41,210 nt of DNA from a virus (IMGVR_UViG_3300021378_001495:1-41210); one strand, 5' to 3'. Positions 4,942-28,918 are shown, numbered from the stretch's first letter. Notes: generated by a model not told the origin, from the sequence alone. Numbers and translations are program-made.

Positions 4942-5734
4942 TACAAATGCTCCAGAAATAAGAGAACTGTTAGGTGATAACCGCACAGTCATTATTAGGA
5001 GAGGTTCAGCCTGGGAACCAGAAGAACTTATTGAGTTCTACAAAGAACTAGGCAACGTAATACAACAGAACGATAAAGTTACAGGCACAGTAGCCACGGG
5101 CGAACTTGTTAAAGTACGTCAGAACGGTTTGTTCGCTGGTAAAGAAGATGGCGAACTAGAATGGCACAGTGCTGGTATGAATAGATCAATCCATGATGAT
5201 ATTGTTGCAATGTATATGCACCAACCCGCAGAGGAAGGTGGTGATACTTATTTTACAGATCATCAGACTGCCTGGGATGATTTAGATGACGATACAAAAG
5301 ACTTATGTCGTGACTTAAAGTCTAAAACACCAACTTACAATGATCGCATGAAGTTGGATCGTATGGGCATTTACAAAAATGTCTTTAGTGATGAACAAAC
5401 TATGATGGAGTTCAGAGATATTAATGGCAACACTAGTTTTGAATCACAAGTACCTAGGAAAGACCTAGTAACCAAGCACCCTATTAATGGTAAAGAAGGA
5501 TTGTATTATCCATGGACAATAATTAGAGGCTTTTCAGGTAGACAAATGGATAAAGATGCACAGCATGATCTTTATTTTAAATTAAAGGAACATACATTGC
5601 AGGAAAAATATATTTACAGCCACAAGTGGGAACAAGGTGATGTTGTACTAAGTGATCAACATCATAGTTTACATAGGCGTGATGCATATACTGGTGACAG
5701 AGAACTATGGAGGGCTGGTATATGTTTGAAATAG
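4922..5734 (+). CDS. TauD/TfdA-family Fe(II)/2-oxoglutarate enzyme with HxA motif
   Basis: A 270-residue protein aligning with the TauD/TfdA fold: ELEWHSAGMN, then EEGGDTYFTDHQTAWDDL, distal histidine H251 in SLHRRDA, and the 2OG-binding arginine R264 in ELWRAG. The usual iron ligands are H-x-D...H. Here the first pair is H82-S-A84, with Ala (codon GCT) where Asp is expected. Loss of that carboxylate is the hallmark of non-haem iron halogenases such as SyrB2, where chloride takes the open site. An inactive enzyme, an alternative ligand or a base error (GAT to GCT is one base) remain possible. It overlaps the next oxygenase by 13 bp. Confidence 0.85.
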   Translation: MAVTVSNTNAPEIRELLGDNRTVIIRRGSAWEPEELIEFYKELGNVIQQNDKVTGTVATGELVKVRQNGLFAGKEDGELEWHSAGMNRSIHDDIVAMYMHQPAEEGGDTYFTDHQTAWDDLDDDTKDLCRDLKSKTPTYNDRMKLDRMGIYKNVFSDEQTMMEFRDINGNTSFESQVPRKDLVTKHPINGKEGLYYPWTIIRGFSGRQMDKDAQHDLYFKLKEHTLQEKYIYSHKWEQGDVVLSDQHHSLHRRDAYTGDRELWRAGICLK

Positions 5735-6450
5735 AATACAGTGATATAGAACACAGTGACCTTAACAAGTTAGTTCTAGAGAATGGATTAGTTGTTGTAC
5801 GTAATGCAGACTTAGACATGCCAGGCTTTGAGGGTATTGCAAACAGTTTAGGTAGACTACTTAAAACTAATCTACACGCAATTAATGAGAGTAGAAACAT
5901 TCAGGAACTTAGTAACAATGAACTACTGAGAGATGGTGATGTTGACTGGCATAACGATTGGAGTTATGGCAGGGGTAACTATTATGGCACAATGTTATAC
6001 AATGTTAAAAATGCACACCTAAGTGAAACATGGTTTGTAGACACAAGCAAGGTTCCAAACTGGTTAAAAGAAGAGTATAAAGAGTGTGTAGGATATTATT
6101 GGTTACCACAGTTTGATGGTGAAGTACAAGCATTTGGTACTGACAGTGAGATACGCAAATGTTTTACTGAGAAGCAGTTAAAAGTATTACAGAAATATGT
6201 ACAGGAAAGACCATTTATACAAAATCACTTTAAAACAGAAGAGGAACTTCTATATTGTAGTCTAGGAACTCTACAACGTATGGATAACGATAGAGAAGTA
6301 GATACCTTTAGAAAGTATTGTGATGAGAACAATTACAAACACAAGTGGAAAGAAGGCGATATACTTTTGTGGGATAATCTAAAAATGATTCACAAACGTT
6401 TTGCCTTTGCTGGAGATAGGATGCTATGGCGAACACAGTTTTCAATATAG
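5722..6450 (+). CDS. TauD/TfdA-family Fe(II)/2-oxoglutarate dioxygenase
   Basis: A 242-residue oxygenase with an intact facial triad: H77-N-D79 in VDWHNDWSYG, distal H224 in MIHKRFAFAG, and R237 in MLWRTQF for 2-oxoglutarate. The start is the ATG at 5722: GGAGG at 5709-5713 lies 8 bases upstream, whereas the in-frame ATG at 5707 contains that site. It follows the HxA enzyme with a 13-bp overlap and resembles it in the C-terminal pattern (HKR or HRR, then DR-x-LWR), so the two may be old duplicates, one hydroxylase-like and one altered. Confidence 0.87.
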   Translation: MFEIEYSDIEHSDLNKLVLENGLVVVRNADLDMPGFEGIANSLGRLLKTNLHAINESRNIQELSNNELLRDGDVDWHNDWSYGRGNYYGTMLYNVKNAHLSETWFVDTSKVPNWLKEEYKECVGYYWLPQFDGEVQAFGTDSEIRKCFTEKQLKVLQKYVQERPFIQNHFKTEEELLYCSLGTLQRMDNDREVDTFRKYCDENNYKHKWKEGDILLWDNLKMIHKRFAFAGDRMLWRTQFSI

Positions 6451-9605: not shown

Positions 9606-10706
9606 ATGAAAAAACTTTTAGCAACAGTTGCCTTGGCGACTATGATGGCTACTTCAGCAGTAGCAGACACTTTGACACTACAGTTTCCAAACGGCCCAGG
9701 TAAGGGCGGAACGGCATTCTGGGGTGACAATGTAATGAAAGAGCTTAATGCAAAGCTCGAAAAGCATGGACATAATATTGTTCCACGTTACCTACCTGGA
9801 CAACGTGGTAAAAAGTCCCTTAAAGATTGGGCAGGATCATATATGGAGCGTGGTGATACGCTCATGATTGCTCACGGCGGTAACGGCGAAGGCTTCCTAC
9901 TAGAAGATGTAGGTGGTTTTGATTATCGTGACTACGATCCAGTAGTTGTAATGAACACAAACATTTGGGTTTCTATTAACTCAGACGTTGACTGGAAAAA
10001 TGACGTAGTTAAATTTCCAGCAACAGGTGGTACAGGCTTTGCGGCTGACATCGTTGCAGTAGGACTTATGATGTGTGGACCAGAAGTTAATGCCACAGTT
10101 GAATCATTCCTAGAGTGTACAAACGAACGTGTACGTTTTATCCCAGGATTTAACTCTGGTGGTGAAAAGCGCCAAGCATTCCGTAGAGGACAGTTAGACG
10201 CAACACGTGATACTCCACAGACTTCTTTAATGGGTTATGCTAAAGAGTATGAGTCAGGACAAAGTCGTGTATGGTTTGCACACGGTATTGTAGACGGTAA
10301 AGGTTCTGTTTACGGTGATCCAAACGCACCAGAAGGCGCACAGTCTTTTAACGAAGTGTACGTTGCAGAGTGGGGCGTTGAACCAACAGGTCCTGTTTAT
10401 GATGCTTATAGAGCATTCCAAGGATATCGTGATGGTTTCCAAAAGACAGTATGGATTGCACCTAATTCTCCATACAAAGACGTAGTTAATCAAGCAGTTC
10501 AAGAAATGATTAACGATCCAGAAGCAATGGCTCGTTTAGATAAGAAACTTGGAGCGTTCCCTTGGTTAGCCGGTGATGAAGTTGTCGAATTTAGTGACTA
10601 CTTGTTCTCACTTATTAAAAGAGAGCGTCTTGAGACACTAGTTATTCTTGCAAATGACGTGTTTAAGTACCAAGATGCATACGTTAAGGAAGAACTACTC
10701 AAGTAA
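9606..10706 (+). CDS. tctC: TctC-like periplasmic solute-binding protein of a TTT transporter
   Basis: A 366-residue protein. The ATG at 9606 follows AAAGGAA and begins a clear signal peptide (MKKLLATVALATMMATSAVA, cut near residue 21). The mature part has the TctC/Bug family layout: a ligand-binding start with FPNGPGKGGTAFWGDN, the middle FNSGGEKRQAFRRGQLDATR and C-terminal WIAPNSPYKDVVNQAVQEM. Such proteins capture carboxylates (citrate, tricarballylate and others) and deliver them to TctA/TctB. At about 345 mature residues it is somewhat longer than usual. It overlaps TctA by one base. The ligand cannot be read from sequence. Carriage by a phage is unusual and probably feeds host carbon metabolism during infection. 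Confidence 0.82.
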   Translation: MKKLLATVALATMMATSAVADTLTLQFPNGPGKGGTAFWGDNVMKELNAKLEKHGHNIVPRYLPGQRGKKSLKDWAGSYMERGDTLMIAHGGNGEGFLLEDVGGFDYRDYDPVVVMNTNIWVSINSDVDWKNDVVKFPATGGTGFAADIVAVGLMMCGPEVNATVESFLECTNERVRFIPGFNSGGEKRQAFRRGQLDATRDTPQTSLMGYAKEYESGQSRVWFAHGIVDGKGSVYGDPNAPEGAQSFNEVYVAEWGVEPTGPVYDAYRAFQGYRDGFQKTVWIAPNSPYKDVVNQAVQEMINDPEAMARLDKKLGAFPWLAGDEVVEFSDYLFSLIKRERLETLVILANDVFKYQDAYVKEELLK

Positions 10707-12271
10707 TGGAGTGGATTCTACAATATCCAGTTGCCGTGCAGTGGGCTATTATGCTTACTGCCGGCATCTTTTATGGGGGCTTAATTGGATTAATTCCTAG
10801 TGCTGGCCCTGGTAAAGCAATCATTATGCTCTTCGTTATTGTACAGAGCTTTGATTTTACTGGCGGTAATTATCTATTCGTATTGTTTTCTATTGCAACA
10901 ATGGTATCATGTACTATTGGTGATAGTTTTGCAAGTGTACTCTTGGGGATACCAGGAGCATCAGGAGCGGCAAGTACAATGGTAGATGGATTTCCTCTAG
11001 CAAAGCAGGGTAAGGCAAGTTACGCTCTTAGTTCTGCAATTACAGTAAGCACAATTAATGGTTTATTATTTGGTGCATTAGGTATGGCTATTATTCCTTT
11101 TTATGGAGCGATAGCAGACTATGTTGGTGTACCAGAGATAGCTGGATTAATATTGGTAGCATTCTGTTTAATATCAGTTGTTACTACAAGAAATACGGGC
11201 AGAAGTTTAATTGCTATTGCAGTAGGTTTGTTTATTGGATCTATTGGTTATGGTATGATGGGCGAAGTTCGTAATACAGGCGGCTGGGCATACCTAGAAG
11301 ATGGTGTACCAGTTGTTATTGTGGCGGCTGGTTTGTTTGCACTTCCTGAATTATATGAAGCACTAACAACCAAGTATGAAGTCGCAAGAATTTCACGTAA
11401 GGAACACAATCAACAAACATGGGATGGCATTTTGGCTGTCTGGAAACACAAGTACCTAGCCTTTATGGGTGGGTGTATTGGTTTCGTTGTTGGTATCTTA
11501 CCTGGAACAGGTGGTGGTATTGGTGACTGGACAAGTTATAGTGCTACAGTTGCAATAAACAAAAATGAAAAAGTAAAGTTTGGTACTGGTAATATTAAAG
11601 GTGTTATCGGTCCTGAAGGCGCTAACAACGCTGGCAAGATGGGAGGCTTATTGCCTACTATTATGTTTGGTATTCCAGGCGGCAAAGTTTTTGCATTATT
11701 AATGGCCTTATGGCTTTATGTAGGCTTTGAAGTTGGTAGTCCATACATCATGGATGATACGCAGTTTATGAATAGTTTACTGGGTGGCTATATGTTTGGA
11801 ACATTCTTTGCTGGTGTACTGATGTTAGTGTTTGCAAGATGGTGTTGCAAAATCGTTTACATTAATCCATTATATTGGATCCCCCCAATGTTGGCGTTGA
11901 CGATTTGGGCAGTTCTTGCAAGTAGATTCTACGCAAGTGTGTATGAAGATTTAACCATGCTAGTAATATTTGGTATTATTGGTATGATAGCTAAGTATGG
12001 TAAGTTTAGTAGACCTGCCCTACTTATGAGTTATATCTTATTCCCACGTATTGAAGGATCTTATCTACAGTTGTCTAACGTATTCTTTTATGATGATATA
12101 CAGTCTGTGTCAGCGGCACTGGGCGGTGACTTTAGTTTATTAAGTCAAAACTATATCTTTAATAATCCTACGTTTATTCAACACCCTGTATTACCGATTG
12201 CTATTATAATTGGTATACTACTTCTATTGTACGGATTTTTTAATAAATCTCGGACAATGGATTACGCATAA
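10706..12271 (+). CDS. tctA: TctA-like large membrane subunit of a TTT transporter
   Basis: A 521-residue, many-helix membrane protein with the two repeat signatures of TctA: GLIPSAGPGKAIIMLF near the N-terminus and GILPGTGGGIGDWTSY in the middle, plus LLGIPGASGAASTMVDGFPL and MFGIPGGKVFALLMAL. Length matches TctA (about 500 residues). It forms the ion-coupled carboxylate channel and normally works with the small four-helix TctB. No TctB-like gene is present; the next gene has only one helix. TctC and TctA abut, as in bacterial operons, but the order is C-A without B. The host's TctB may serve, or the pair may work alone. Confidence 0.88.
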   Translation: MEWILQYPVAVQWAIMLTAGIFYGGLIGLIPSAGPGKAIIMLFVIVQSFDFTGGNYLFVLFSIATMVSCTIGDSFASVLLGIPGASGAASTMVDGFPLAKQGKASYALSSAITVSTINGLLFGALGMAIIPFYGAIADYVGVPEIAGLILVAFCLISVVTTRNTGRSLIAIAVGLFIGSIGYGMMGEVRNTGGWAYLEDGVPVVIVAAGLFALPELYEALTTKYEVARISRKEHNQQTWDGILAVWKHKYLAFMGGCIGFVVGILPGTGGGIGDWTSYSATVAINKNEKVKFGTGNIKGVIGPEGANNAGKMGGLLPTIMFGIPGGKVFALLMALWLYVGFEVGSPYIMDDTQFMNSLLGGYMFGTFFAGVLMLVFARWCCKIVYINPLYWIPPMLALTIWAVLASRFYASVYEDLTMLVIFGIIGMIAKYGKFSRPALLMSYILFPRIEGSYLQLSNVFFYDDIQSVSAALGGDFSLLSQNYIFNNPTFIQHPVLPIAIIIGILLLLYGFFNKSRTMDYA

Positions 12272-13055: not shown

Positions 13056-13283
13056 ATGATCTATAGGTTTAAAGATAAAGTAATAGAATGGGATGGTAAA
13101 GCCAGAGTTTATTCAGGGGGCTGGTTAGTCTTTAAGGGCTGTGGTTTTATCGGGATCTTAACTTTTATCAAGTTATGTGACAACCACCCTGATGTAGTTG
13201 AAAAATTTAAACCGCAATTAGAACAACGAGAAAAAACTCGCTTTAAGGAAGCAAAGCCTAATGACAATCAATTGTCTGGCTAG
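13056..13283 (+). CDS. Small hypothetical protein, one hydrophobic segment
   Basis: About 75 residues from the ATG at 13056 (MIYRFKDKVIEWDGKARVY). The purine-rich AAGGGGA lies too close to that ATG, so the in-frame TTG at 13044 is an alternative start. A moderately hydrophobic stretch (FKGCGFIGILTFIKLC) is followed by a charged tail. Its last 4 bp overlap the convergent Fis-like gene. No family recognised. Confidence 0.5.
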   Translation: MIYRFKDKVIEWDGKARVYSGGWLVFKGCGFIGILTFIKLCDNHPDVVEKFKPQLEQREKTRFKEAKPNDNQLSG

Positions 13284-13567
13284 GCTTCTTTTTCTTCTAT
13301 AAAACATCTTGCTGGCGACTTCAAACTAATCCCCAACCTTTTACAACGTGCAATTAAATTTGTTCTTCCCACCTTTAATAACGAGGCAGTATGTGTTTGA
13401 TTATAATCACACGCTTCTAGTGCTTCAACAACCATATTGGTTTCTTTATCTCGCAATTCAGCCTCTAAACTTGTATCATCAAATTTGGAAGGATAAATAT
13501 TTATTGTAGTGTTAAAGATCTCATCGAGTGAATCCCATAGATAGTCTTGTTCTGTTTTTTCGCTCAT
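13280..13567 (-). CDS. Fis-type helix-turn-helix DNA-binding protein
   Basis: A 95-residue minus-strand protein. Its C-terminal half, MVVEALEACDYNQTHTASLL followed by KVGRTNLIARCKRLGI, is a Fis-type HTH_8 domain (pattern ALxxxxxNQTxAAxxLxVxRxxLxxxxKxLGI). The N-terminal half is acidic and helical, probably for dimerisation. It is the only minus-strand gene among plus-strand genes and is divergent from the curli cassette, with the shared 75-bp gap holding a perfect inverted repeat. It is thus a natural candidate to control csgF and its followers, or its own expression. Convergent overlap with the gene to its left is 4 bp. Confidence 0.85.
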   Translation of the reverse strand: MSEKTEQDYLWDSLDEIFNTTINIYPSKFDDTSLEAELRDKETNMVVEALEACDYNQTHTASLLKVGRTNLIARCKRLGISLKSPARCFIEEKEA

Positions 13568-13592: not shown

Positions 13593-13622
13593 GTGTAAAA
13601 ATATTTACACTATACATAAATA
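13593..13622 (+). promoter_or_regulatory. Perfect inverted repeat and late-like box upstream of csgF
   Basis: GTGTAAA-AATA-TTTACAC at 13593-13610 has 7-bp perfect arms. CATAAATA at 13615-13622 lies 20 bp before the csgF start. The dyad is midway between the divergent Fis-like gene and csgF, fitting an operator for a dimeric regulator. Confidence 0.5.
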
Positions 13623-13642: not shown

Positions 13643-14122
13643 ATGCAGATTATAAAGTATTTAGTAGCAACAGTTATTCTTACCTGGGCATCAGCTAGTA
13701 TAGCTGGTGAACTTGAATGGTCCTTTAAATCACCAGCTTTTCATTACGGCAATGGATATAGTAACCATGTTCTAAGTGTAGAACAGTTAGGATATCAACG
13801 TAAAAAGGAACTGGAAGAATCCAAAAGGTCTGAAGAAGCTAGGCTGGAACGTGAACTAGAAAATACTACACTCAATAAGTTCTTAAAGAACGTTGAGTCA
13901 CGCATATATGCTACTCTTTCCAAACAAATGGTAGACAGTATGTTTGAGACTTGTGATGAAACTACTACAACCTGTCCAACAGGCGGTACAGCAGAAATCG
14001 AAGGATCAACTATTACTTGGTTGAAAGATTCTACAACAGGAAGTATTAAACTTACTATAGTTGGAGAAGATGGAACCACTACCGAAATCACGATTCCAGG
14101 TGCGGGGGAGTTTAACTTTTGA
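13643..14122 (+). CDS. csgF: CsgF-like curli assembly factor
   Basis: A 159-residue protein with a signal peptide (MQIIKYLVATVILTWASASIAG) and then GELEWSFKSPAFHYGN, which matches the mature CsgF N-terminus (F-x-F-R-N-P-x-F-G-G) that plugs into the CsgG pore. A charged helix (QRKKELEESKRSEEARLER), a Cys pair (ETCDETTTTC) and a C-terminal beta region ending in ITIPGAGEFNF follow. In curli systems CsgF couples CsgG secretion to surface nucleation by CsgB. GGAGGG lies before the ATG. It overlaps csgG by 4 bp. The Cys pair is not found in enteric CsgF, as far as I recall. Confidence 0.8.
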   Translation: MQIIKYLVATVILTWASASIAGELEWSFKSPAFHYGNGYSNHVLSVEQLGYQRKKELEESKRSEEARLERELENTTLNKFLKNVESRIYATLSKQMVDSMFETCDETTTTCPTGGTAEIEGSTITWLKDSTTGSIKLTIVGEDGTTTEITIPGAGEFNF

Positions 14123-15282
14123 AAAAACAAATACTCCTAAGTTTCCTGGCAGTAATACTCGGCGGGTGTTCGTCAATGAATCAATCTCTAGACGTTTATA
14201 GAGAGAGTCAAGACAATAACGCTTCGCCTAAAGTGCAAGTCAGCCCTATAGCAGAAAGACTAGAAGATGTCCCGAAGCTAGACGGCAAAAAGATTACAAT
14301 CGCAGTCTACGGTTTTCAAGATAAAACAGGACAGCGTAAACCAGTAGCTGGTGTGTCTAGTTTATCTAGTGCAGTTACACAAGGTTCAGAAGTTTGGGTA
14401 ATCAAAGGCTTACAAGATGTAGGTGGACAATCGTGGTTTGAGGTGGTAGAGCGTGTAGGCATGGACAATCTAATCAAGGAACGCCAGTTGATACGCAATA
14501 CGAGAGAAGTTTATGAGAAGGAAAAGGTTTCAGGACCTACTCCTTTAAAACCACTCCGTTTTGCTGGGCTAATACTTGAAGGTGGGATTGTCGGCTATGA
14601 TGCTAACACCGCTGTTGGCGGCATAGGTGCCCGTTTCTTGGGTATAGGCGCACAAACAGAGTATAGAGTAGATACAGTGACAGTAGTCATACGTATGGTT
14701 AGTGTAAGCACAGGGAGAGTGATGCTCAGCATCGCGACAGAGAAATCAATTGCAAGCACGAGAAGTGGAGCCGACATATTTAAGTTTTTAGACTTGGGTA
14801 CAAAAGCAATAGAGAGTGAAACTGGTTACAGTGTCAATGAACCAGTAAACTATGCCGTAAGGGCGGCTATTGAATGTGCCATTATAGAATTAGTATATGA
14901 AGGTGAAAAGACAGGCTTGTGGAAATTTAAACAAGACATAGATGATAAAAAGGCAGAAGTAAAAGAACTAAGTTCTGACAGACCAGTATTAAGACCCGAG
15001 GATAAGATTCAAAAACTAGCAATGCAAGCATTGTCTGGTGTAGAGATGAAAAGAACGGCACAGGATTCTGGACAATTACCCATTATTAGTGATGGGCCAC
15101 ATGGGACAAAGACGTGGCAACCAACTATAGAATGGAAGTGGAGCAAAGACTTAAACACAACAACAGATCGTGAATATCAATTTTGTGATAAAGACGAACG
15201 GTGTTTCAAAACTAGTACTGATCTATATAGGTTTGAATCATTACAAGCAATTAAAAAGGATAGTTTGACCATGTCAGACTAA
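14119..15282 (+). CDS. csgG: CsgG-like outer-membrane curli secretion lipoprotein
   Basis: A 387-residue lipoprotein. It starts with TTG at 14119, inside the csgF stop (TTGA), with GGGGGAG 8 bases upstream. The lipobox is LGGCSS. ITIAVYGFQDKTGQRKP matches the CsgG family strand (VAVYxFxDxTGQ), with VWVIKGLQDVGGQSWFEVVE, RFAGLILEGGIVGYDANT and RVDTVTVVIRMVSVSTG following in the order of the CsgG nonameric pore domain. A C-terminal extension of about 100 residues goes beyond the usual 260-280. CsgG forms the export channel for curlin subunits. A complete form with lipobox and transmembrane strands suggests it is functional in the host outer membrane. Confidence 0.9.
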   Translation: MKKQILLSFLAVILGGCSSMNQSLDVYRESQDNNASPKVQVSPIAERLEDVPKLDGKKITIAVYGFQDKTGQRKPVAGVSSLSSAVTQGSEVWVIKGLQDVGGQSWFEVVERVGMDNLIKERQLIRNTREVYEKEKVSGPTPLKPLRFAGLILEGGIVGYDANTAVGGIGARFLGIGAQTEYRVDTVTVVIRMVSVSTGRVMLSIATEKSIASTRSGADIFKFLDLGTKAIESETGYSVNEPVNYAVRAAIECAIIELVYEGEKTGLWKFKQDIDDKKAEVKELSSDRPVLRPEDKIQKLAMQALSGVEMKRTAQDSGQLPIISDGPHGTKTWQPTIEWKWSKDLNTTTDREYQFCDKDERCFKTSTDLYRFESLQAIKKDSLTMSD

Positions 15283-15300
15283 CAAATATTGGGGGATATT

Positions 15301-16005
15301 ATGAGATTGTTTTTCGTCGTGCTTATGCTACTCACAGCAGGGTATGCATCAGCGAATGAGATTTACATACAGCAAGTAGGTGACACTTTGGATTTGGACA
15401 TCACACAAGATGGTACAGATAACAAAATTGGTACAAGCTCGCAAGATGTAATTTTAGGTGCAACAGGCACCGCAAGTGATACTATGACATTTGCTATCAC
15501 ACAAACAGGTAACAGCAACGCTATTACCGCACAAATATTAGGTACTACATATACAGGTACATGGACTTTTACAGGTAACAGCAACACAGTTGACTTACTT
15601 TGTGATAGTAGTGGCGCAGGTAACTGTGATACCGTAATAATGAATATTGCCACAACAGGTAATAGTAACGCTTACACAATTAAGGTTGGTGAATCAGCTG
15701 ATTCAGATGGCTTAACAGCTAACTTTACTGTAACAGATGATGGTGCAGTTATTGCAACAGATGTTAATGGTAAAGCCGCAAACTTAACAGTGACAGTTAA
15801 CAAGAATAGTTCATCTATTAGTACAGTGAACACTTTAGATCTTGATATGGCTGGTGATGGCGATATTTTAGGTCACACACAAATATTAAGTGTAAAAGGA
15901 AGAGGAAATAGTGTAACGATTAACCAATCTGGTGTTAAGGATAATCACGTTGATTTGGATATGACAGGCGATAACGCTGACGTAGACATCATTCAATCAG
16001 ATTAA
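15301..16005 (+). CDS. Curlin-repeat amyloid protein 1 (CsgA/CsgB-like)
   Basis: A 234-residue secreted protein. The ATG at 15301 follows GGGGGAT. The signal peptide MRLFFVVLMLLTAGYASA is followed by NEIYIQQVGDTLDLDITQDG, a curlin repeat, and further repeats of the Q-x-G-x-x-N-x-x-x-x-Q type (FAITQTGNSNAITAQILG, TFTGNSNTV, TTGNSNAYTI, SVTINQSGVKDNHV). These beta-strand-loop-strand units stack as the amyloid core of curli. The middle repeats are degenerate. It shares its mature N-terminus with the second curlin at 17150. The next short gene begins 20 bp later. Confidence 0.83.
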   Translation: MRLFFVVLMLLTAGYASANEIYIQQVGDTLDLDITQDGTDNKIGTSSQDVILGATGTASDTMTFAITQTGNSNAITAQILGTTYTGTWTFTGNSNTVDLLCDSSGAGNCDTVIMNIATTGNSNAYTIKVGESADSDGLTANFTVTDDGAVIATDVNGKAANLTVTVNKNSSSISTVNTLDLDMAGDGDILGHTQILSVKGRGNSVTINQSGVKDNHVDLDMTGDNADVDIIQSD

Positions 16006-16025
16006 CTTATAGCTAGGAGGCAATT

Positions 16026-16079
16026 ATGTACATTATAAAAAATACTAAGATTCCTTCAGGGGATCACAATGATACTTAG
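16026..16079 (+). CDS. 17-residue leader-like peptide between curlin and FecR genes
   Basis: ATG at 16026 with a near-ideal CTAGGAGG site 5 bases upstream. It reads MYIIKNTKIPSGDHNDT and stops at TAG 16077-16079, overlapping the FecR-gene start (16069) by 11 bp. The strong ribosome site and coupling suggest a translated leader that controls FecR synthesis. It may also be a remnant. Confidence 0.45.
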   Translation: MYIIKNTKIPSGDHNDT

Positions 16080-17202
16080 GTTTTTACTATTATTAGTATT
16101 AGCAACGCCAGCGTATGCTGACATTGGTGACATAGGAAAGATTAAAGGATCAGGCGCCCTTGAACGTGGCAATGAAAGTATTATTGCAGAACAGGGCGTG
16201 TCTGTGCAAACCATGGACACGGCTGTTACCGCAAATGCCAAGATGCGTATTGACTTTATTGATGATACTCGTGTTGATATAACACAACACAGTAGATTAT
16301 TAATAGATGAGTTTGTTTACGATCCTGCAAATGATATTGGATCACTAAGCATTAAAGCAACATTAGGAACAGTCCGTTATGCAAGCGGACAAATCGCAAA
16401 AAAATACCAACAAAATGTAAAGATTAGAACACCAAGTGCAACAATTGGTGTACGTGGTACCGACTTCATTATGGTTGTAGATGAGATGGGTGGATCAATG
16501 ATTACCCTATTACCCAGCTGTGATGTTAGCGGTAACTGTTATACAGGTGAGATTGAGGTAGAAACAGACACTGGTTTCGTTATACTTAATCAAGCATTCC
16601 AAGCTACATTAACTTCAACAAGATGGCAACCTCCTGCAAAGCCACTGTTACTTAATATAGACGAGAAGGAGATTAACAGTCTTCTAATCTTACGTAAAAA
16701 GAACCCTTATGAAGATGAAGAGTATGAAGAATATGTTAAGCGTAAGAAGCTTGCAGATTTTTTAGGTATTGACTTCTTAGAATTTGATGGACTTGATGCT
16801 GATGCACTAACTGATGATATACAAAATATATGGGAAACAGAACTTGATGCACATTCTTATATGTTACAAGATCTTCTGTTTGATATCCTAGATCAGTTAA
16901 ATGCATCAATTAGTGCAAGTTTTCAAGATGAATTAAAAAGACAAAACAAATTATTTTTATCAGAAGGTTCTAAGAGTATAAACAAAGATCAATACGGATT
17001 TGATCCAGCTACAGGTATTAATTTAATTAAAGAAGAACCATATAGAATATTAGAAAGACGTGATCCAATAACAGGTGATTACTTGCGGCTTAAATTATAT
17101 CTACATGGTGGTTATACGATAAATATGACACAAGGGGAGTGGGAACAATATGATTACAAATTGGGCGCCGATAGCTCTAGTACTATTGATATTAAACAGT
17201 AG
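16069..17202 (+). CDS. FecR-domain periplasmic/surface protein
   Basis: A 377-residue protein with a signal peptide (MILRFLLLLVLATPAYA). It then carries a FecR domain: a strand-rich N-terminal part with VQTMDTAVTANAKMRIDF and the signature KIRTPSATIGVRGTDFIM (TPxAxxGVRGT), about residues 30-140. The C-terminal part is acidic, coiled-coil-like and without repeats. AGGGGA lies 5 bases before the ATG. In bacteria, FecR-domain proteins of this soluble type are often encoded beside CHASE2 cyclases, and one lies two genes downstream here, so it may sense or present a surface signal. It overlaps the second curlin by 53 bp. Confidence 0.87.
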   Translation: MILRFLLLLVLATPAYADIGDIGKIKGSGALERGNESIIAEQGVSVQTMDTAVTANAKMRIDFIDDTRVDITQHSRLLIDEFVYDPANDIGSLSIKATLGTVRYASGQIAKKYQQNVKIRTPSATIGVRGTDFIMVVDEMGGSMITLLPSCDVSGNCYTGEIEVETDTGFVILNQAFQATLTSTRWQPPAKPLLLNIDEKEINSLLILRKKNPYEDEEYEEYVKRKKLADFLGIDFLEFDGLDADALTDDIQNIWETELDAHSYMLQDLLFDILDQLNASISASFQDELKRQNKLFLSEGSKSINKDQYGFDPATGINLIKEEPYRILERRDPITGDYLRLKLYLHGGYTINMTQGEWEQYDYKLGADSSSTIDIKQ

Positions 17203-18175
17203 TGCAGTACTAGCAAATGATATCTATATACAACAGGTAGGTGATGATCTTGATATGGACATCACTCAAGATGGTTCCAATAATCAGGTTGAAGGATTGT
17301 CTGGCAGTGGTGATGCCCAAATAAGTGGGAACAATAAAACAATCGCACTAACACAACAAGGTGACAACAACCAGTATCGTATCTGGACAAACGGTGACAA
17401 TCAACAAATGACAGCAACAACCACAGGAAACAATAATATAACCGCCATGGATAATCATGGAAACAATAATAATATGTCTATAAGTATTACTGGTGGCTAC
17501 AATCAAACTCATACTGAAATAGGAAACGGTGGCGATAACGATAACGCCATAAGTTTAACTATAGACAATGGTGATGATAATTATATATACTCTGAAGTAC
17601 AAAACGGCGATTATAATCAAATAGACACACAAATACATAGCCAAGACGATGGTTATATAAAAGTAACAGTCAATGGTAATAGTAATAATATTAAAGCATG
17701 GCAAGGCAAGCACGAAGATGGTAATGTAGATTCAGATGAAACTGGTGACAATGAGGTATATTGGATTGTATCAGGTAACAGCAATAACCTTGCAAGTTAT
17801 CAGACAGATGATAACGGTAATGGTGGACAGCATATTGCAAACTATGTTACAGGTAATAGTAATACAGTAAAACACACACAGCGTGGTGCAAGTGATCACA
17901 GAGGCTTCATTGAAATAGGTGGCGATAGCAATACTGTAGAGCTTAAACAAAGAGGGAATAGCAATGTACAGTTCGCTGATATAGTTTTAGATGACGGACA
18001 CACAGTTGATGTACATCAGAGATACGGTAGTCATACCGCTAACATTGACCTTACAAACGCAGGCGGCGGATATACATTAGATTTAGATCAAACTGCCAGC
18101 ACTAACCAAACATATAACCTAACAGGTACGTGTGCGACTGTGGGTGGTTGTGGCTTAACAATAACACAAAACTAA
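17150..18175 (+). CDS. Curlin-repeat amyloid protein 2 (larger)
   Basis: A 341-residue secreted protein: signal peptide ending SSAVLA, then NDIYIQQVGDDLDMDITQDG, almost the same as in curlin 1, and about a dozen Asn/Gly/Gln-rich repeats (LTQQGDNNQYRI, TTTGNNNITAMD, VNGNSNNIKAWQ, VSGNSNNLASYQ, VTGNSNTVKHTQ, IGGDSNTVELKQ). The period is about 20-23 residues, as in CsgA. It ends TCATVGGCGLTITQN with a Cys pair. The start lies in the FecR gene (53-bp overlap) after AGGGGAG. With curlin 1 it may form a major-subunit and nucleator pair like CsgA/CsgB, which is inference. Confidence 0.85.
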   Translation: MITNWAPIALVLLILNSSAVLANDIYIQQVGDDLDMDITQDGSNNQVEGLSGSGDAQISGNNKTIALTQQGDNNQYRIWTNGDNQQMTATTTGNNNITAMDNHGNNNNMSISITGGYNQTHTEIGNGGDNDNAISLTIDNGDDNYIYSEVQNGDYNQIDTQIHSQDDGYIKVTVNGNSNNIKAWQGKHEDGNVDSDETGDNEVYWIVSGNSNNLASYQTDDNGNGGQHIANYVTGNSNTVKHTQRGASDHRGFIEIGGDSNTVELKQRGNSNVQFADIVLDDGHTVDVHQRYGSHTANIDLTNAGGGYTLDLDQTASTNQTYNLTGTCATVGGCGLTITQN

Positions 18176-18187
18176 GGAGACTTATGC

Positions 18188-18424
18188 ATGATAGAATTGG
18201 TAATGGCAGGATATTTACAGTGCTCACTAGCCGCACAAATAATAGTCAACGAAGACCGAAAATGTTTCTATCAGTGCCGAGACTCAAGCAGAGAGTTCGC
18301 TTCAACACTAAAGCAATATCAATGCCCTAAAACACTTTATGCTGATAGACCAGCATTACCCTTTAAAGAACGAGACCGTAAAAACAAATGGACCAAAGAG
18401 GAAATAGAAAAATATGCTGAGTAA
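18188..18424 (+). CDS. Small Cys-rich protein in curli cassette
   Basis: 78 residues with AAGGAG 8 bases before the ATG. The N-terminus MIELVMAGYLQCSLAAQII may be a weak signal peptide. Four cysteines (C12, C26, C30, C46) are in place for two disulfides outside the cytoplasm, and the C-terminal third is charged. By position between curlin and cyclase it may be an assembly helper in the manner of CsgC/CsgE, but no sequence similarity to them is visible. It overlaps the cyclase by 11 bp. Confidence 0.6.
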   Translation: MIELVMAGYLQCSLAAQIIVNEDRKCFYQCRDSSREFASTLKQYQCPKTLYADRPALPFKERDRKNKWTKEEIEKYAE

Positions 18425-20468
18425 ATATATAACACATTGGTTAACACCACTACTTACGGCAACGTTAATAGCACTCTTTCACTATTCAGATAACTTTGTA
18501 GTTGAAACAGTAAGACTTAAATCATTTGACCTATTACAACAAACTGATAAACCTATTGCAAGTCAGGATATAGCAGTTGTTGAAATAGACGAAGCCTCTA
18601 TAGAAAAATATGGACAGTGGCCCTGGAGCAGAGAAGTAATTGCAGATATTATATGGCAGTTGCGTGAAGCTGGTGCAGGCATTATAGTATTACCCATGCT
18701 GTTCAGCGAGGACGATAGACTTGGAGGCGATGAAGCCCTAGCTGATGCACTATACGAAAATGGTGTTATCATTGCACAAACAGGAAGTATACAGGCGAAT
18801 AAGAATGCAGTGCCACGTGGTGTTGCAAAGATAGGTGACCCTCTACCCTACTTGTTTGAATGGCCAGGCATGCTTGGACCAATTCCATTACTAGGCGAAA
18901 CAGCAACAGGTGTTGGCGTACTAAACACAGCACCAGAGATAGATGGCGTAGTTCGTCGTGTACCATTAATCATGCGTGTGGGAGAAGAAACATACCCTAG
19001 TATCGCAGTTGAAGTTATACGTGTAGCAACCAACGCTCCAAGCTATCAGATCAAAGCAAATGCAGGCGGCGTAGAAAAAGTACGTGTGCCTGGATATCCA
19101 ATAATTAATACTGATCCCAACGGACAAATATGGTTACGTTGGAACAAAGAGTTTTCATCAGTTAGTGCCACTGATACTTCTAACTTTGCACTATTACAAG
19201 GTAAAACTGTAATAGTTGGAGTTACGGCAGAGGGTATTGGTGGTATTATAGCGAGTCCAAAAGGGCCACAGTTCAATTACATTCCAGCGGCTACAACACT
19301 ACAAAATTTGCTGGATGGAGATCAAATTGAACGTCCCTTTTGGGCTCTCCTAGCAGAACTAATAGCAACAGCCGCAGTTGGTTTAATAATTGTAGTTGTT
19401 GCAGGATTGGCACCCTACTGGTTAGTAGGGGCTGTCGTAGTTGGGTTAGGAGCAGGCTTGGGGTATGGTAGTTTATATGCTTGGCAAAACTATTTGTATC
19501 TGATTGATGTAAGTATGCCACTATTAGCAGTTGTAATCGTTGCATTACATGCAGTGTTTAATAGGTTTATAAGTGAATACTTTCAGAAGATGGAAATTAA
19601 AAAGCAGTTTGCTGGATACGCATCACCTACAGTTGTGCGTATGCTACAGGAAAATCCAGCATTAATTAAAGACGGTATGAAGAAGGAAGTTTCAATTTGC
19701 TTCTCAGACTTGCGTGGATTTACACCACTGGGCGAATCATTTGGAGATGATGTTAAAGGTCTTACAAAGATTATGAATGGCTACATGGATGCAATTACCC
19801 AACCAATACTTGATGCTGATGGAATGGTAATCAAGTATATTGGTGATGCAAGTATGCATGTACACAATGCACCAATTGAAGACCCAGACCATCCTAAAAC
19901 AGCAGTACAATGTGGACTGGATATGTTAAAAGCAGTGGAGATATTTAATGACAAAATTACAGCAGAAGGTAGACCACCAGTGGGTATGGGGGCTGGTATT
20001 AATACTGGTCTTGGGTATTTGGGCGAGATGGGTTCCACAGCCAGACACAGTTACGATGTCCTTGGGGACTCAGTGTCCACAGCCGCCAGAATTGAAAGTA
20101 AATGTAAAGAGTATGGATGCGTATTACTTATTGGACAAGCCACTTACGATCAGACAAAGGATGATTTCTTTTACTTAAAAATAGATGACCTAGCAGTTAA
20201 AGGTAAGAGTGTTGGTATTGGTATATGGACTGTACTAGATGATGCAAAGCCAGCGTGGCGTACAGCAAAACGCAAGCATGAAGAGATGTATGAGTTCTAC
20301 CTAGCACAAAAGTTTGATGATGCTATAGCGAGTTGTAATTTATTACACAACCACTTTGATGGTAAGATGTCTGGATATTACGATATGTGGATTGAACGTT
20401 GTGAGTATATGAAAACACAAGAGTTACCTAAGGACTGGAACGGTGTGTTTATTGCTACTACAAAGTGA
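18414..20468 (+). CDS. CHASE2-domain class III adenylate cyclase
   Basis: A 684-residue membrane enzyme. One N-terminal helix (residues 7-24) leads into a CHASE2 sensor outside the membrane (about 30-305, with IAVVEIDEASIEKYGQWPWS typical). Three helices follow at about 312-380 and then a class III cyclase domain (about 425-615). Catalytic residues seen are D432 in CFSDLRGFT, K474 and D478 in KYIGDASM, D548 in YDVLGD, and R559. The usual Asn of VNxAAR is Ser555. The Lys/Asp pair favours ATP over GTP. All key metal ligands are present, so it looks active. It closes the curli/FecR cassette, right before a terminator-like hairpin. A cyclic nucleotide signal made by a phage enzyme would be very unusual. 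Confidence 0.92.
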   Translation: MLSKYITHWLTPLLTATLIALFHYSDNFVVETVRLKSFDLLQQTDKPIASQDIAVVEIDEASIEKYGQWPWSREVIADIIWQLREAGAGIIVLPMLFSEDDRLGGDEALADALYENGVIIAQTGSIQANKNAVPRGVAKIGDPLPYLFEWPGMLGPIPLLGETATGVGVLNTAPEIDGVVRRVPLIMRVGEETYPSIAVEVIRVATNAPSYQIKANAGGVEKVRVPGYPIINTDPNGQIWLRWNKEFSSVSATDTSNFALLQGKTVIVGVTAEGIGGIIASPKGPQFNYIPAATTLQNLLDGDQIERPFWALLAELIATAAVGLIIVVVAGLAPYWLVGAVVVGLGAGLGYGSLYAWQNYLYLIDVSMPLLAVVIVALHAVFNRFISEYFQKMEIKKQFAGYASPTVVRMLQENPALIKDGMKKEVSICFSDLRGFTPLGESFGDDVKGLTKIMNGYMDAITQPILDADGMVIKYIGDASMHVHNAPIEDPDHPKTAVQCGLDMLKAVEIFNDKITAEGRPPVGMGAGINTGLGYLGEMGSTARHSYDVLGDSVSTAARIESKCKEYGCVLLIGQATYDQTKDDFFYLKIDDLAVKGKSVGIGIWTVLDDAKPAWRTAKRKHEEMYEFYLAQKFDDAIASCNLLHNHFDGKMSGYYDMWIERCEYMKTQELPKDWNGVFIATTK

Positions 20469-21509: not shown

Positions 21510-22212
21510 AAGATTGTAGTTTTTTGTAGTCTAAACCAGTCAATTCTTGGAAGTATTGTAACCATATATCTTCATTGTCTTGTCCCCACACTTGGTTAAA
21601 TGGCCCACCATTTGTAAAGTGTAGAGCATAAGGTTCTGGGTTAATGTCATATTCTCCTACTAACCAATTCCAACGAACATCTAATGATCCTATTCTAATA
21701 TCATCTGTCCATTGAAATCTATGTAAGTATTGTGGTGACATATTGTTTACGGCTATGGTACTGAGCTTTTGCACGTCTGGGTGACTGCAATTAAAAAGTA
21801 TTAAGCTACTCCAGTTCTTTTTAGGAACAGCTTCTTGTTGCTCACCGTAAAATTTAAATTCGTTTTTGGGAGTGTACTCTGCATGTCTTACAACAAAACA
21901 GCTATATCTTTCTGAGCCTGGACGTTGTATAATATCCTCAACGACTGGTGTTATATCTTTTAGGAACACAAAGTCGCTGTCAACAAACATTGCCCAGCCT
22001 TCAAACTTTTCTAAGTGTGGTATTAGAAATCTACTGTAGGTAAACTCTGTACTTGCTTTACCCTCTGTACGCCAATAGACTCCATCTTTTACGAGTTTAT
22101 CCATACGTAATATATCAATATCTATATTGTATTTGGCGTGCTTATGTAAACTGTACTCGCAAACTTTAGTTGCATCTTGTTGTTTACTGTCATGTCCTAT
22201 GTATATTTTCAT
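21508..22212 (-). CDS. GT8-like glycosyltransferase
   Basis: About 234 residues from the ATG at 22212 (MKIYIGHDSKQQDATKVCEY); an in-frame GTG at 22266 is an alternative. AMFVDSDFVFL carries the D-x-D metal-binding motif of GT-A enzymes. YSRFLIPHL, SLILFNCSHPDVQKL and ALHFTNGGPFNQVW match the order of GT8-type sugar transferases, whose C-terminal H-x-x-G-x-x-K region is similar. It would transfer a sugar from a nucleotide donor to an unknown acceptor. It overlaps the radical SAM gene by 23 bp. Confidence 0.75.
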   Translation of the reverse strand: MKIYIGHDSKQQDATKVCEYSLHKHAKYNIDIDILRMDKLVKDGVYWRTEGKASTEFTYSRFLIPHLEKFEGWAMFVDSDFVFLKDITPVVEDIIQRPGSERYSCFVVRHAEYTPKNEFKFYGEQQEAVPKKNWSSLILFNCSHPDVQKLSTIAVNNMSPQYLHRFQWTDDIRIGSLDVRWNWLVGEYDINPEPYALHFTNGGPFNQVWGQDNEDIWLQYFQELTGLDYKKLQS

Positions 22213-23050
22213 TCCAGATATTGGCGCTCTCTTCTCCGCTTTTACAACCGTTTGTATTACACCCACTACAAGCAGGTAGGTTGCTTCTATTTCCTAATAA
22301 CAGTTCCTTGCGAACTGCCATGAATTCAGCAGACATCCATATGTTATTGAATGTATCAGTATTTATATTGCCGAAATCTTGTTGTTTTCTAGCCCAATCG
22401 TTACAACACAAACCTACTCCGCCGTCCCAATCAATGAATGCTTTATACATAGGCATCCAACATTGTTGTTGCAATGATTCAATCATACCCATTGTACCAC
22501 CACGATTGTTAAAGTCGTATACTTCTAATAGGTTTGATTCTCCAGTGTCGTAGTTATTTCTAATCCTGCACTTGCCTACAAAGTTTGACATAAGTTCTGT
22601 CATTGCTTTTGTCTGTTCAGGACCATCGTAACAGTCTATTATTATATGGCTCAAGCCATACGCACTTAGCTCTTGGTGTGTGAGTTTACCATTCAGTAAA
22701 CGATCACCATTAGTAATCATTTCAGTGTGGAAGTTTTTACTGAATGCATCAATGATCTCTAATATATGTGGATTAAGTGTAGGTTCACCCCAGCCTGTAA
22801 TATGTATATCACCACTGTAGTTTGCATCAAGCAGTTGTTTACTCAATGTTTCCGCAGTTGCTACAGACATATGTAAGTTGCGATTAGGATATATGTCTGG
22901 ATCAACTCTAGGACAGAAGCTACATTTTCTGTTACATAATTCAGTAGGATTTATCTCTACAGTTGCTAGACCCAATAGTTTTTCGTTAGTTGTGTCAAGC
23001 TCGTTGTATCTATTCTTTCTATGGGTAATGTGTTCTAGGAAGTCGTTCAC
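22190..23050 (-). CDS. Radical SAM/SPASM protein
   Basis: 286 residues. The radical SAM motif is CNRKCSFC (C39, C43, C46), followed by HITGWGEPTLN (the GGEP-like SAM site) and EMITNGDRL. C-terminal cysteines in CWMPMY, GLCCNDW, LPACSGC and TNGCKSG form a SPASM domain with two auxiliary clusters. SPASM enzymes modify peptides, sugars or proteins. The start is directly at the stop of the protein at 23050-24012, so the two are coupled. Confidence 0.87.
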   Translation of the reverse strand: MNDFLEHITHRKNRYNELDTTNEKLLGLATVEINPTELCNRKCSFCPRVDPDIYPNRNLHMSVATAETLSKQLLDANYSGDIHITGWGEPTLNPHILEIIDAFSKNFHTEMITNGDRLLNGKLTHQELSAYGLSHIIIDCYDGPEQTKAMTELMSNFVGKCRIRNNYDTGESNLLEVYDFNNRGGTMGMIESLQQQCWMPMYKAFIDWDGGVGLCCNDWARKQQDFGNINTDTFNNIWMSAEFMAVRKELLLGNRSNLPACSGCNTNGCKSGEESANIWNENIHRT

Positions 23051-24012
23051 TACAAATCTTTCCTATTCTTACTGATATTATTTTTAGTGTTAGTTATAAC
23101 TCTTTGTTTACTTGGATCTGGTGTGAAGTCAGTGTCCACTAAGCTCTTTGGATAATGATCAAATCCTTCATACAACCATCCATCTTCCTTCTTTTTGAAC
23201 ATATAATCACCCATCATAAAGATATCACCTTTAAATACACATTGGTTTAATAACTTTTGAGGACCATATTCAATCATTGCTTCGCGGTGTATTGTATCTG
23301 TGTATGAGAATGAAGGTAATACAAGTCTAAACTTTTGTGGATTGCTTTTGTATTTGCCAAACTTCCTTAACCACCTAGCCATACCCTTTGCCCATGGTCC
23401 AAACTGATCGTCTTCATATGAATATCCATCGTCACCTGCAGTGAATACAACCTCTTCGTAGTGCCAATTAAATCTAGGATCACTTGACTTTTTAAATATG
23501 CTTGCAAGTTGTTTAGCAGTATGTATCTGTGTCCAATCGTCTAAACTCCAAAAGAAAGGCTGTTGATCTATTTCAGGATACCATATATAAAATAGCTCTA
23601 TCTCTTCTAAGTCTTGTAAGAAAACAGTTGCAATCTTTTTATCACCGCCTGGATGGCATGTATAGTATCTACCAGAGTTAATTATTTGCATGGGAGCCAT
23701 AATACCATTCTCTTTAATATCGTTTACTAACCACAGCTTCTTTGCAATCCTATAACATGTGTATAGATCCTCATCATTATTCCATTCCCAATGCTCACAC
23801 TCTGAAAAGCGTTGCTTTGTTTCTTTATCAAGTTGTCTGAACTCTTCTATTTGATTACTAAATCCTAACATGACACTACCTATTCTACCACCATTTGGGA
23901 TTGGATCTAGCAGTGATCGCAGTTGTCTACTATTAGATTTGACGTGTATAACTTGAGCTCTCCCAGTAGTATGAGCCCAATCAAACCATTGATCTAAATT
24001 TTTTACTCTCAC
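23050..24012 (-). CDS. Hypothetical protein with possible ParB-like motif
   Basis: 320 residues, soluble. The part ENGIMAPMQIINSGRYYTCH, then PGGDKKIAT, resembles the ParB/sulfiredoxin-like pattern G-x-x-x-P-hydrophobic with a later HPGxxR/K-like box seen in some phage proteins. No other domain is recognised, and the C-terminal third is basic. It overlaps the radical SAM gene upstream by 4 bp and shares one base with the one downstream, so it belongs to the same modification cassette and may be a substrate-handling partner. Confidence 0.6.
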   Translation of the reverse strand: MRVKNLDQWFDWAHTTGRAQVIHVKSNSRQLRSLLDPIPNGGRIGSVMLGFSNQIEEFRQLDKETKQRFSECEHWEWNNDEDLYTCYRIAKKLWLVNDIKENGIMAPMQIINSGRYYTCHPGGDKKIATVFLQDLEEIELFYIWYPEIDQQPFFWSLDDWTQIHTAKQLASIFKKSSDPRFNWHYEEVVFTAGDDGYSYEDDQFGPWAKGMARWLRKFGKYKSNPQKFRLVLPSFSYTDTIHREAMIEYGPQKLLNQCVFKGDIFMMGDYMFKKKEDGWLYEGFDHYPKSLVDTDFTPDPSKQRVITNTKNNISKNRKDL

Positions 24013-25100
24013 ATCTTATCCTCTATTTCAGCAAACCAATCTTTAAATTCAGGACGTAAGTCTAAAACATTTGATTTACGTACTTTGTCTAATGCAGTTA
24101 TAAACTTATAAAATTTTATTTGCATATCTATTTCTGGTTTACTGGTTGGCCATATACTTGTAGGTAATACTCTATCTACATCTAGGTATTCAGGCTTGTA
24201 TACTTTTTGGTGGTGGTATTGGAGTTGACTTCGGTACACACCCTTGTCATACCATTCTCTCATAATTGGTTTAGCTAGTGTTGACTGATCATATGTTATA
24301 GGATGAATTGTATCTATAACAAATACTCGCCTACATATTGATAATATCCTTGTAATATTATCTTTCACTTCCTCAATACCAAAGTGATCACCTCTAGCAT
24401 ATCTATATATTTTATCGTCCCATGCGTCAACACTAATTTGCATGTTCAGTCTTTTAAATTTGGATAGTTTGTTTAATATATCTGTATCTATCAATGTTCC
24501 ATTTGTCATTATACGCAAGTGACAATCAGGTACATGTTCACTTAGAAATTTAATAAACTCTAACGCATCTTCTTGGTAGAGTGGCTCTCCACCTGATAGT
24601 TCAACAGTACCTAAGTCTCTCCACCACTCTAAAGGTATTTTTGTCCACCAGTCTATTCCCATTGTACTATAAGGAACCTCAGGTAATCGCATGTCGTGAT
24701 CAAGTAACTGATTCATCCTCTTCTCATCTTTGAGCCACGCAGTGCTACGATCACTGCCACACATCACACACTTAAGGTTACACTTGTTTGAGAAGTCTAT
24801 CTTAAGATAGAATTTGTTACCATTATTAGTATACTTTTTTAGCTTGAATCGTTGGCTAATACCTTCTGGATCTGCTTCTCTGTCTATGCAGACAGCACAG
24901 TCGTTATTGTAACCGCCATGCTGTAACACACTATACTTTTTAATGTACTCAGGACTTTGTAGTATGCTTAGAAAGTCTTCAGTGTTATTTAACTTATATG
25001 TATGGCTATCTACATTACTGGCAAGTGAACAACACAGTCGCATAGTATTGTCTTGTCTTAGCCATACGTGTTGATTGCCTGCCTGGCACCATCTAGTCAT
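24009..25100 (-). CDS. Radical SAM protein with N-terminal cysteine cluster
   Basis: 363 residues. The radical SAM motif CNLKCVMC (C107, C111, C114) lies late in the chain, with ELSGGEPLYQ and RIMTNGTLI following. Before it come C5, C23, C24 and the C68-x-x-C71 pair, so what looks like a SPASM/twitch-type auxiliary cluster region is in front of the core instead of behind it. Similar layouts occur in radical SAM proteins of marine T4-like phages. The ATG at 25100 is the first gene of the minus-strand operon reading to 20529. Target unknown. Confidence 0.85.
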   Translation of the reverse strand: MTRWCQAGNQHVWLRQDNTMRLCCSLASNVDSHTYKLNNTEDFLSILQSPEYIKKYSVLQHGGYNNDCAVCIDREADPEGISQRFKLKKYTNNGNKFYLKIDFSNKCNLKCVMCGSDRSTAWLKDEKRMNQLLDHDMRLPEVPYSTMGIDWWTKIPLEWWRDLGTVELSGGEPLYQEDALEFIKFLSEHVPDCHLRIMTNGTLIDTDILNKLSKFKRLNMQISVDAWDDKIYRYARGDHFGIEEVKDNITRILSICRRVFVIDTIHPITYDQSTLAKPIMREWYDKGVYRSQLQYHHQKVYKPEYLDVDRVLPTSIWPTSKPEIDMQIKFYKFITALDKVRKSNVLDLRPEFKDWFAEIEDKM

Positions 25101-28365: not shown

Positions 28366-28918
28366 ATACAATCCAGGTAATGGTGGCTGGGCAGTTGCAA
28401 ATATAATTAACACTTGCCTTGGACATACATTACAACCAAGTGAAGCAGAACAGTTTGAAGGTAACGGCCATAACACAAGTTTATACGACAGGCTAAGTTC
28501 AGAGAAAGAATTAATGCGTACACAAACTGATACCAGTATAAATTTTGAATATGAAGCATATTCGGAAGGAATTTGTTTGCCCATACATTATGAGTTTAAC
28601 ACACCAACAAGTGCAGAACATGTTATAGATGTGTTCCGTAGTAGCAATCATCACTATGTTCCTTGGAACTTATATAATAAAGAAGAAGATTGGGAACTAA
28701 CACCTCAATTTATTGATAGGGCAATAGAGATGAGTACTAATAAAAATACTGGTGATTTTGATACAGCAATAGCATTTGATGATCATAACCCAGACTATGT
28801 AGGAAAATTCCTAAGCAAATATAGTTTAGTACCAACAGAAGAAACATGGCATTTTTATTATGACTATGTAACAAAACAAAAAGAGTTGAATAGTAAATGT
28901 ACAATTACTCAGACGTAA
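28349..28918 (+). CDS. Hypothetical protein, possible sulfotransferase-like fold
   Basis: 189 residues. The N-terminus MLLIVRYNPGNGGWAVANII has a Gly-rich turn after a strand that recalls the P-loop of phage sulfotransferase-like proteins, though no Lys is present. No other motif is clear. It overlaps the membrane gene by 17 bp and the radical SAM gene by 22 bp. Function not assigned. Confidence 0.6.
   Translation: MLLIVRYNPGNGGWAVANIINTCLGHTLQPSEAEQFEGNGHNTSLYDRLSSEKELMRTQTDTSINFEYEAYSEGICLPIHYEFNTPTSAEHVIDVFRSSNHHYVPWNLYNKEEDWELTPQFIDRAIEMSTNKNTGDFDTAIAFDDHNPDYVGKFLSKYSLVPTEETWHFYYDYVTKQKELNSKCTITQT

Follow-up and report, generated by a model that had tools for sequence, protein, structure and literature searches.

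Curlin-repeat genes beside a secretion pore gene in a virus raise the question of whether a phage could clothe its host in an extracellular fibre, and of how such a fibre would be controlled and used. We addressed this question for the IMG/VR virus record IMGVR_UViG_3300021378_001495, analysed as a whole (41,210 bases; hereafter the window), which carries a curli-type cassette at positions 13643-20468 on the plus strand. A sequence-only reading had recognised CsgF, CsgG, two curlins, a FecR-domain protein, a small Cys-containing protein and a CHASE2 cyclase in this stretch, and all were confirmed by profile matches (Table 1). The evidence favours a viral type VIII (curli) operon of a known kind, expressed late, that would build a curlin fibre on the infected cell; we put the probability of this whole reading at roughly 0.55. 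If the fibre is made, very small, curli-free ocean bacteria would be given a new extracellular structure, and cell contact, aggregation and phage encounter could change.

Gene content and conservation of the cassette

The IMG/VR profile scans recovered 79 loci with CsgG and, for the cyclase, the best 80 of 390 loci. The sequence-only reading had proposed a search of viral genomes for csgG with FecR and CHASE2 neighbours. When only distinct CsgG proteins followed by 7.5 kb or more of sequence were counted (n = 61), CsgF, curlin 1, the FecR-domain protein, curlin 2 and the cyclase were all found beside CsgG in 60; the single exception begins at its contig end. Median gaps at the first three joints of the viral loci are -1, +1 and -1 bp. 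The genes of the window had been described as joined by short overlaps, which holds for three of the six joints (4, 53 and 11 bp); the other three are gaps (6, 63 and 12 bp).

The isolated phages HTVC008M (KC465899) and Melnitz possess the same block near baseplate and tail genes. A T4-type (gp23) major capsid gene was identified in both of them and in two cassette contigs of about 300 kb. A second contig nearly identical to the present record also exists (L002/L081). Given the many independent viral contigs, the near-identical contig and the isolated phages, a chimeric assembly of bacterial and phage DNA, in favour of which nothing was found, is practically excluded, as is the lack of any related viral cassette, the other outcome named as fatal in the sequence-only reading. 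Four bacterial bins (L164, L165, L167 and L169) contain the full set on contigs of 6.8-36 kb, and these look like phage contamination.

Three components of type VIII secretion are present at the gene level: a CsgG pore lipoprotein, CsgF and exported curlin-repeat subunits. The lipobox of CsgG is intact, as claimed earlier (LGGC, residues 14-17), and residues 43-273 align with the solved E. coli protein (phmmer 2e-46; 4uv2). Past the CsgG domain there is an unusual C-terminal extension of about 110 residues. A two-Cys motif (C-x5-C type, e.g. CDKDERCF) was seen in this tail (residues ~280-387) and in a minority of viral CsgG proteins. Signal-peptide-like N-termini are found on CsgF, on the FecR-domain protein and, in agreement with the sequence-only reading, on both curlins. 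The [hydrophobic]-x-[hydrophobic]-x-Q strand motif occurs seven times in curlin 2, compared with 1.4 in shuffled sequences. Curlin 1 is modelled by AlphaFold as a beta-solenoid (predicted local distance difference test 79, predicted template modelling score 0.71); with this model VIA-align listed no solved curlin and returned other beta-helices only (e.g. SufB/SufD). CsgE and CsgC, already noted as not evident, gave no match in 13 records (the window and 12 related or reference viral records), which also speaks against their being encoded elsewhere in these viral genomes. The gene set looks complete and is kept across viruses, in support of the surface-fibre programme that had been proposed.

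In a quick CsgG tree the viral sequences stood apart from 73 bacterial ones; because node support is unreliable after re-rooting, we make no claim on the origin of the viral CsgG.

Table 1. Features of the cassette and its control region, with positions in the window.
Feature	Position	Strand	Evidence
Fis-like (HTH_8) small DNA-binding protein	13280..13567	-	PF02954 9.4e-08; divergent from operon
18-bp palindrome GTGTAAAAATATTTACAC, putative operator of the Fis-like protein	13593..13610		association with Fis-like open reading frame (ORF)
T4-type late promoter motif CATAAATA	13615..13622	+	NATAAATA enriched upstream of csgF
CsgF	13643..14122	+	PF10614 6.5e-10 (above cut-off); phrog_35372 4.5e-49
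CsgG outer-membrane pore lipoprotein	14119..15282	+	PF03783 4.1e-46; PDB 4uv2 2.1e-46
Curlin 1	15289..16005	+	PF07012 8.7e-5 (above cut-off); AlphaFold beta-solenoid
FecR-domain protein, signal peptide, curlin-type C-terminal strand	16069..17202	+	PF04773 3e-8
Curlin 2 (Asn/Gln-rich)	17150..18175	+	PF07012 0.048 (weak); strand-motif enrichment; signal-peptide-like N-terminus
Small Cys-containing ORF	18188..18424	+	homologues in 15 retrieved loci
CHASE2 - class III nucleotide cyclase	18414..20468	+	PF05226 9.7e-44; PF00211 1.7e-15

The FecR-domain protein

In the FecR-domain protein the signal peptide is followed directly by the FecR domain, the only domain recognised by Pfam. The layout of FecI/FecR-type regulators, with a cytoplasmic anti-sigma part and an inner-membrane anchor ahead of the FecR domain, was not found in it. 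In the AlphaFold model two beta domains, one N-terminal (residues 20-182) and one C-terminal (residues ~310-377), are predicted with confidence, and the linker between them poorly. The modelled N-terminal domain resembles the PupR signalling domain (Z 15.3, root mean square deviation 2.7, 138 aligned); its similarity to an adhesin surface-anchoring domain is weaker (Z 7.6, deviation 2.2, 73 of 76).

The strand motif of the curlins, followed by 0-4 residues, closes 94 of the 96 distinct FecR-domain proteins. Curlin 1 (85/92) and curlin 2 (70/104) also end in it; in the controls it was found in CsgF (1/88), CsgG (5/86), cyclases (3/87) and other viral ORFs (13/1005). A slightly wider version of the motif ends 138 of 226 bacterial curlin-like ORFs near csgG, versus 70 of 2791 background ORFs. 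The motif in the FecR tail could conceivably be a by-product of the overlap with the curlin 2 gene. All 70 junctions scored overlap, 52 by at least 20 bp and 18 by less, and the motif is kept in every one; since it is kept at long and short overlaps alike, it is independent of overlap length. Full curlin-repeat homology of the tail found no support from profile methods, and the ending is therefore treated as a motif defined by position and not as an established curlin repeat. With its curlin-type terminal strand, the protein has the appearance of a fibre-associated component more than of an iron anti-sigma factor.

The CHASE2 cyclase

Canonical class III adenylate cyclases have two metal Asp residues, an adenine Lys, and a transition-state Arg and Asn, roles that are well established for this class and are carried over here. 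In the viral cyclase sequences D432, D478, K474 and R559 are invariant (90/90). The adenine position is occupied by Asp548 in 85 of 90 and the transition-state position by Ser555, again in 85 of 90, this virus included, while bacterial CHASE2 relatives (n = 30) have Ser/Thr at the first site (30/30) and Asn at the second (29/30). Five viral sequences keep the Asn at 555 (L075, L076, L077, L146 and L161 (= HTVC008M)). As the canonical transition-state Asn is absent from the enzyme of this virus, replaced by Ser555, we refer to it as a cyclase-domain protein, not as a proven adenylate cyclase. The exact DNA pattern for the Asp/Ser form retrieved more than 120 loci, almost all viral. A bacterial source of this form was sought with the same pattern and rejected, with 0 of 398 genomes of the phylum matching.

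The cNMP_binding domain was not found in ten viral records, and among 60 genomes of the family to which a Pelagibacter bin belongs (SAR11) it is missing from 58. With no such domain in the viral records and only two of 60 family members having one, the output of the cyclase is unexplained. That nearly all of the SAR11-family genomes tested apparently lack a cyclic AMP receptor is what gives the cyclase its particular interest. The description of the FecR and CHASE2 genes as 'sensor and signal enzyme' therefore stands in part: genes for a FecR-domain and a cyclase-domain protein are present, but the former lacks an anti-sigma part and ends like a curlin, and receptor domains for cyclic AMP are scarce.

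The small Cys-containing ORF lies immediately 5' of the cyclase gene in nearly all of the 15 loci where homologues were retrieved. At one locus (L126) the csg block and the cyclase gene are on opposite strands, which shows that the cyclase is separable from the operon.

Control region and its second partner

The sequence-only reading had overlooked a divergent Fis-like ORF, a palindrome and a late promoter motif upstream of csgF. They are arranged in the order Fis-like start, palindrome, late motif and csgF (Table 1). Of 89 distinct loci, 40 have the motif NATAAATA in the 150 bp 5' of csgF; it occurs in 4.5% of random windows and in 7.7% of shuffled sequences, and HTVC008M has it before structural genes as well. 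At 25 of 82 distinct loci csgF is flanked by a divergent Fis-like (HTH_8) gene. The 18-bp palindrome was present in 20 of the 25 csgF upstream regions with the Fis-like ORF and in none of 60 without it, and of its 40 copies in 2.5 Mb, 37 lie no more than 250 bp upstream of csgF. Because some loci partly overlap and the viruses are related, these figures are counts and not independent events. The Fis-like protein of this virus had no match among named phages. At five loci (L315, L318, L323, L332 and L333) the same palindrome was seen 5' of a gene for a 319-residue membrane-like protein, with no Fis-like gene in the stretch read; a second site or chance is possible.

An alignment scan of IMG/VR for the Fis-like protein gave 45 loci (35 distinct). 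The regulator faces csgF in 22 of the latter, a secreted Asn/Thr-repeat protein in 11 and a related secreted protein without repeats in two. The Asn/Thr-repeat loci (L354, L367, L370-L375 and L378-L380) have the same regulator and late promoter and no csg genes. Their repeat proteins share a conserved Cys-containing C-terminal domain, and in the loci examined a large companion gene comes next. The three proteins tested matched phrog_20531 and gave zero Pfam matches. Relatives occur in the Pelagibacter phage isolates HTVC023P, HTVC115P, HTVC202P, HTVC033P, Baldr and Mosig, none of which was returned by the CsgG search; conversely, HTVC008M and Melnitz were not returned by the search for the Asn/Thr-repeat protein. 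This pattern suggests that the curli cassette and the Asn/Thr-repeat protein may occupy an exchangeable slot for secreted structures.

A more extended model, which we offer tentatively, would be a late marine-phage slot for a secreted surface structure, governed by the Fis-like regulator at a GTGTWAAWWWWTTWACAC operator; it would hold the curli cassette in some phages and the Asn/Thr-repeat protein with its large companion in others. In the curli version the CHASE2 cyclase, altered and possibly non-canonical, would be connected with the fibre through a FecR-curlin hybrid.

Proposed role of the operon

From the observed gene content, order, conservation, motifs and operator/regulator association we infer timing, fibre formation, FecR-curlin contact and benefit as follows. 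The carrier would be a marine, probably T4-like, phage. Transcription of the operon is probably late and, in this subgroup, probably also controlled by the divergent Fis-like protein through the palindrome. An outer-membrane pore made of CsgG and CsgF would let out the two curlins, which would form a fibre on the infected cell. The FecR-domain protein, once exported, would sit in the periplasm or at the surface and use its curlin-type C-terminus to anchor or nucleate the fibre by binding or capping it; it may also report fibre status to the inner-membrane CHASE2 cyclase. By altering the cell surface late in infection, the fibre would favour the holding back of progeny or contact between sibling cells. 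When and how the fibre forms can be approached through the regulator/operator pair and the FecR C-terminus, which give concrete, testable entry points.

Several points weigh against this interpretation. The T4 major capsid gene was not found in the 41-kb record, which is possibly a fragment. The association of palindrome and Fis-like ORF (20/25 versus 0/60) is uncorrected for virus relatedness. The putative FecR-curlin link is based on a short positional motif; profile-profile comparison of the FecR-domain protein with curlin 1 matched the signal peptide alone, and a curlin-tail hidden Markov model scored FecR tails weakly (median 0.3 bits). Clumping was not seen in Melnitz infection (PMC9004378); sticking of infected cells had been one of the possible effects named in the sequence-only reading, next to a superinfection block and altered particle release. 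Finally, the missing CsgE leaves gating unexplained, though CsgE is missing in Alphaproteobacteria as well (PMC3521004).

It has been raised that the fibre or altered surface chiefly blocks superinfection by competing phages (PMC9599517). In favour of this, the cassette is surface-directed and is placed in a variable region with genes for an NTP-transferase, a carbamoyltransferase and a uridine diphosphate-glucose dehydrogenase-like protein, but late expression would follow much of the superinfection risk, and we consider such a primary function unlikely. For Melnitz it has been proposed that CsgG and CsgF are repurposed as a gated pore for lysis timing, the fibre not being the point (PMC9004378). 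The absent CsgE gate, the late-promoter position and the lack of clumping reported by those authors speak for a lysis pore. Curlins would be superfluous for such a pore, but nearly every virus has retained the two curlin genes, and the Melnitz GenBank record annotates two curlin-repeat proteins, contrary to the statement in that paper that csgA/B are lacking; we regard this use of the pore as rather improbable. A third reading, in which infected cells take up large nutrients or iron carriers through an open CsgG pore and the FecR-domain protein senses iron, would suit the PupR-like fold, the TctA transporter gene just upstream and the missing CsgE gate. It seems very improbable, as the FecR-domain protein starts with a signal peptide, its sequence lacks a cytoplasmic anti-sigma part, and the curlins and CsgF are left unexplained.

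Other genes of the window

A gene of the TctA family (tripartite tricarboxylate transporter) lies upstream of the cassette (10706-12271, plus strand). Its relatives were found in 13 IMG/VR loci, at least two of these contigs also having the curli cassette; among named phage records the matches were distant only. Four radical SAM genes (3498-4433, 22190-23050, 24009-25100 and 28897-29988), two TauD-like dioxygenases (4922-6450) and a carbamoyltransferase (1989-3497) were also identified. No tRNA, tmRNA or Rfam match was obtained within the window.

Comparison with known systems

The set had been considered unusual. This is not supported, because CsgF, CsgG, CsgA/B, FecR, a second CsgA/B and adenylate cyclase have been described in podo- and myoviral Pelagiphages (PMC9599517), and the HTVC008M annotation includes CsgF, CsgG, a curlin and the cyclase. 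Curli genes have also been reported in pelagimyophages (PMC7029224) and in phage Melnitz (PMC9004378). The cassette, FecR and cyclase included, is thus already known from work published in 2020-2022. The curlin-type ending of the FecR-domain protein, the Asp/Ser pair of the cyclase, the Fis-like gene, palindrome and late promoter motif before csgF in part of the family, the Fis-like gene facing Asn/Thr-repeat proteins and the scarcity of cNMP-binding domains appear not to be in these three papers.

The type VIII secretion cassette of Pelagiphages (PMC9599517, HTVC008M) has the gene order seen here, CsgF-CsgG-curlin-FecR-curlin-cyclase, and likewise no CsgE or CsgC. This virus adds the small Cys-containing ORF, the long CsgG tail, and the divergent Fis-like gene with its palindrome. 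The podoviral cassette is reported with an upstream histidine kinase, whereas none was recognised in the ORFs just 5' of csgF here.

Alphaproteobacterial curli operons (mainly of Sphingomonadales among the loci found) resemble the viral one in the CsgF-CsgG neighbourhood, the curlin-like ORFs and the lack of CsgE (PMC3521004), and the closest bacterial CsgG found is alphaproteobacterial (39-52% identity). They differ in their partners: around the 73 bacterial loci with the nearest CsgG, covered for about 10 kb at most on each side, there was no FecR match, and the one cyclase match is partial, at the very edge of its stretch.

Bacterial FecR/CHASE2-adenylate-cyclase modules are known, for example, from Campylobacterota (PMC9239204). 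As in the viruses, an exported FecR-domain protein adjoins a CHASE2 cyclase, an arrangement that we also saw at several bacterial loci. In contrast to the viral operon, no curli genes are reported with these modules (PMC9239204), the FecR tails inspected are without the curlin-type C-terminus, and the cyclases have Ser/Thr and Asn at the two positions that are altered in the viruses.

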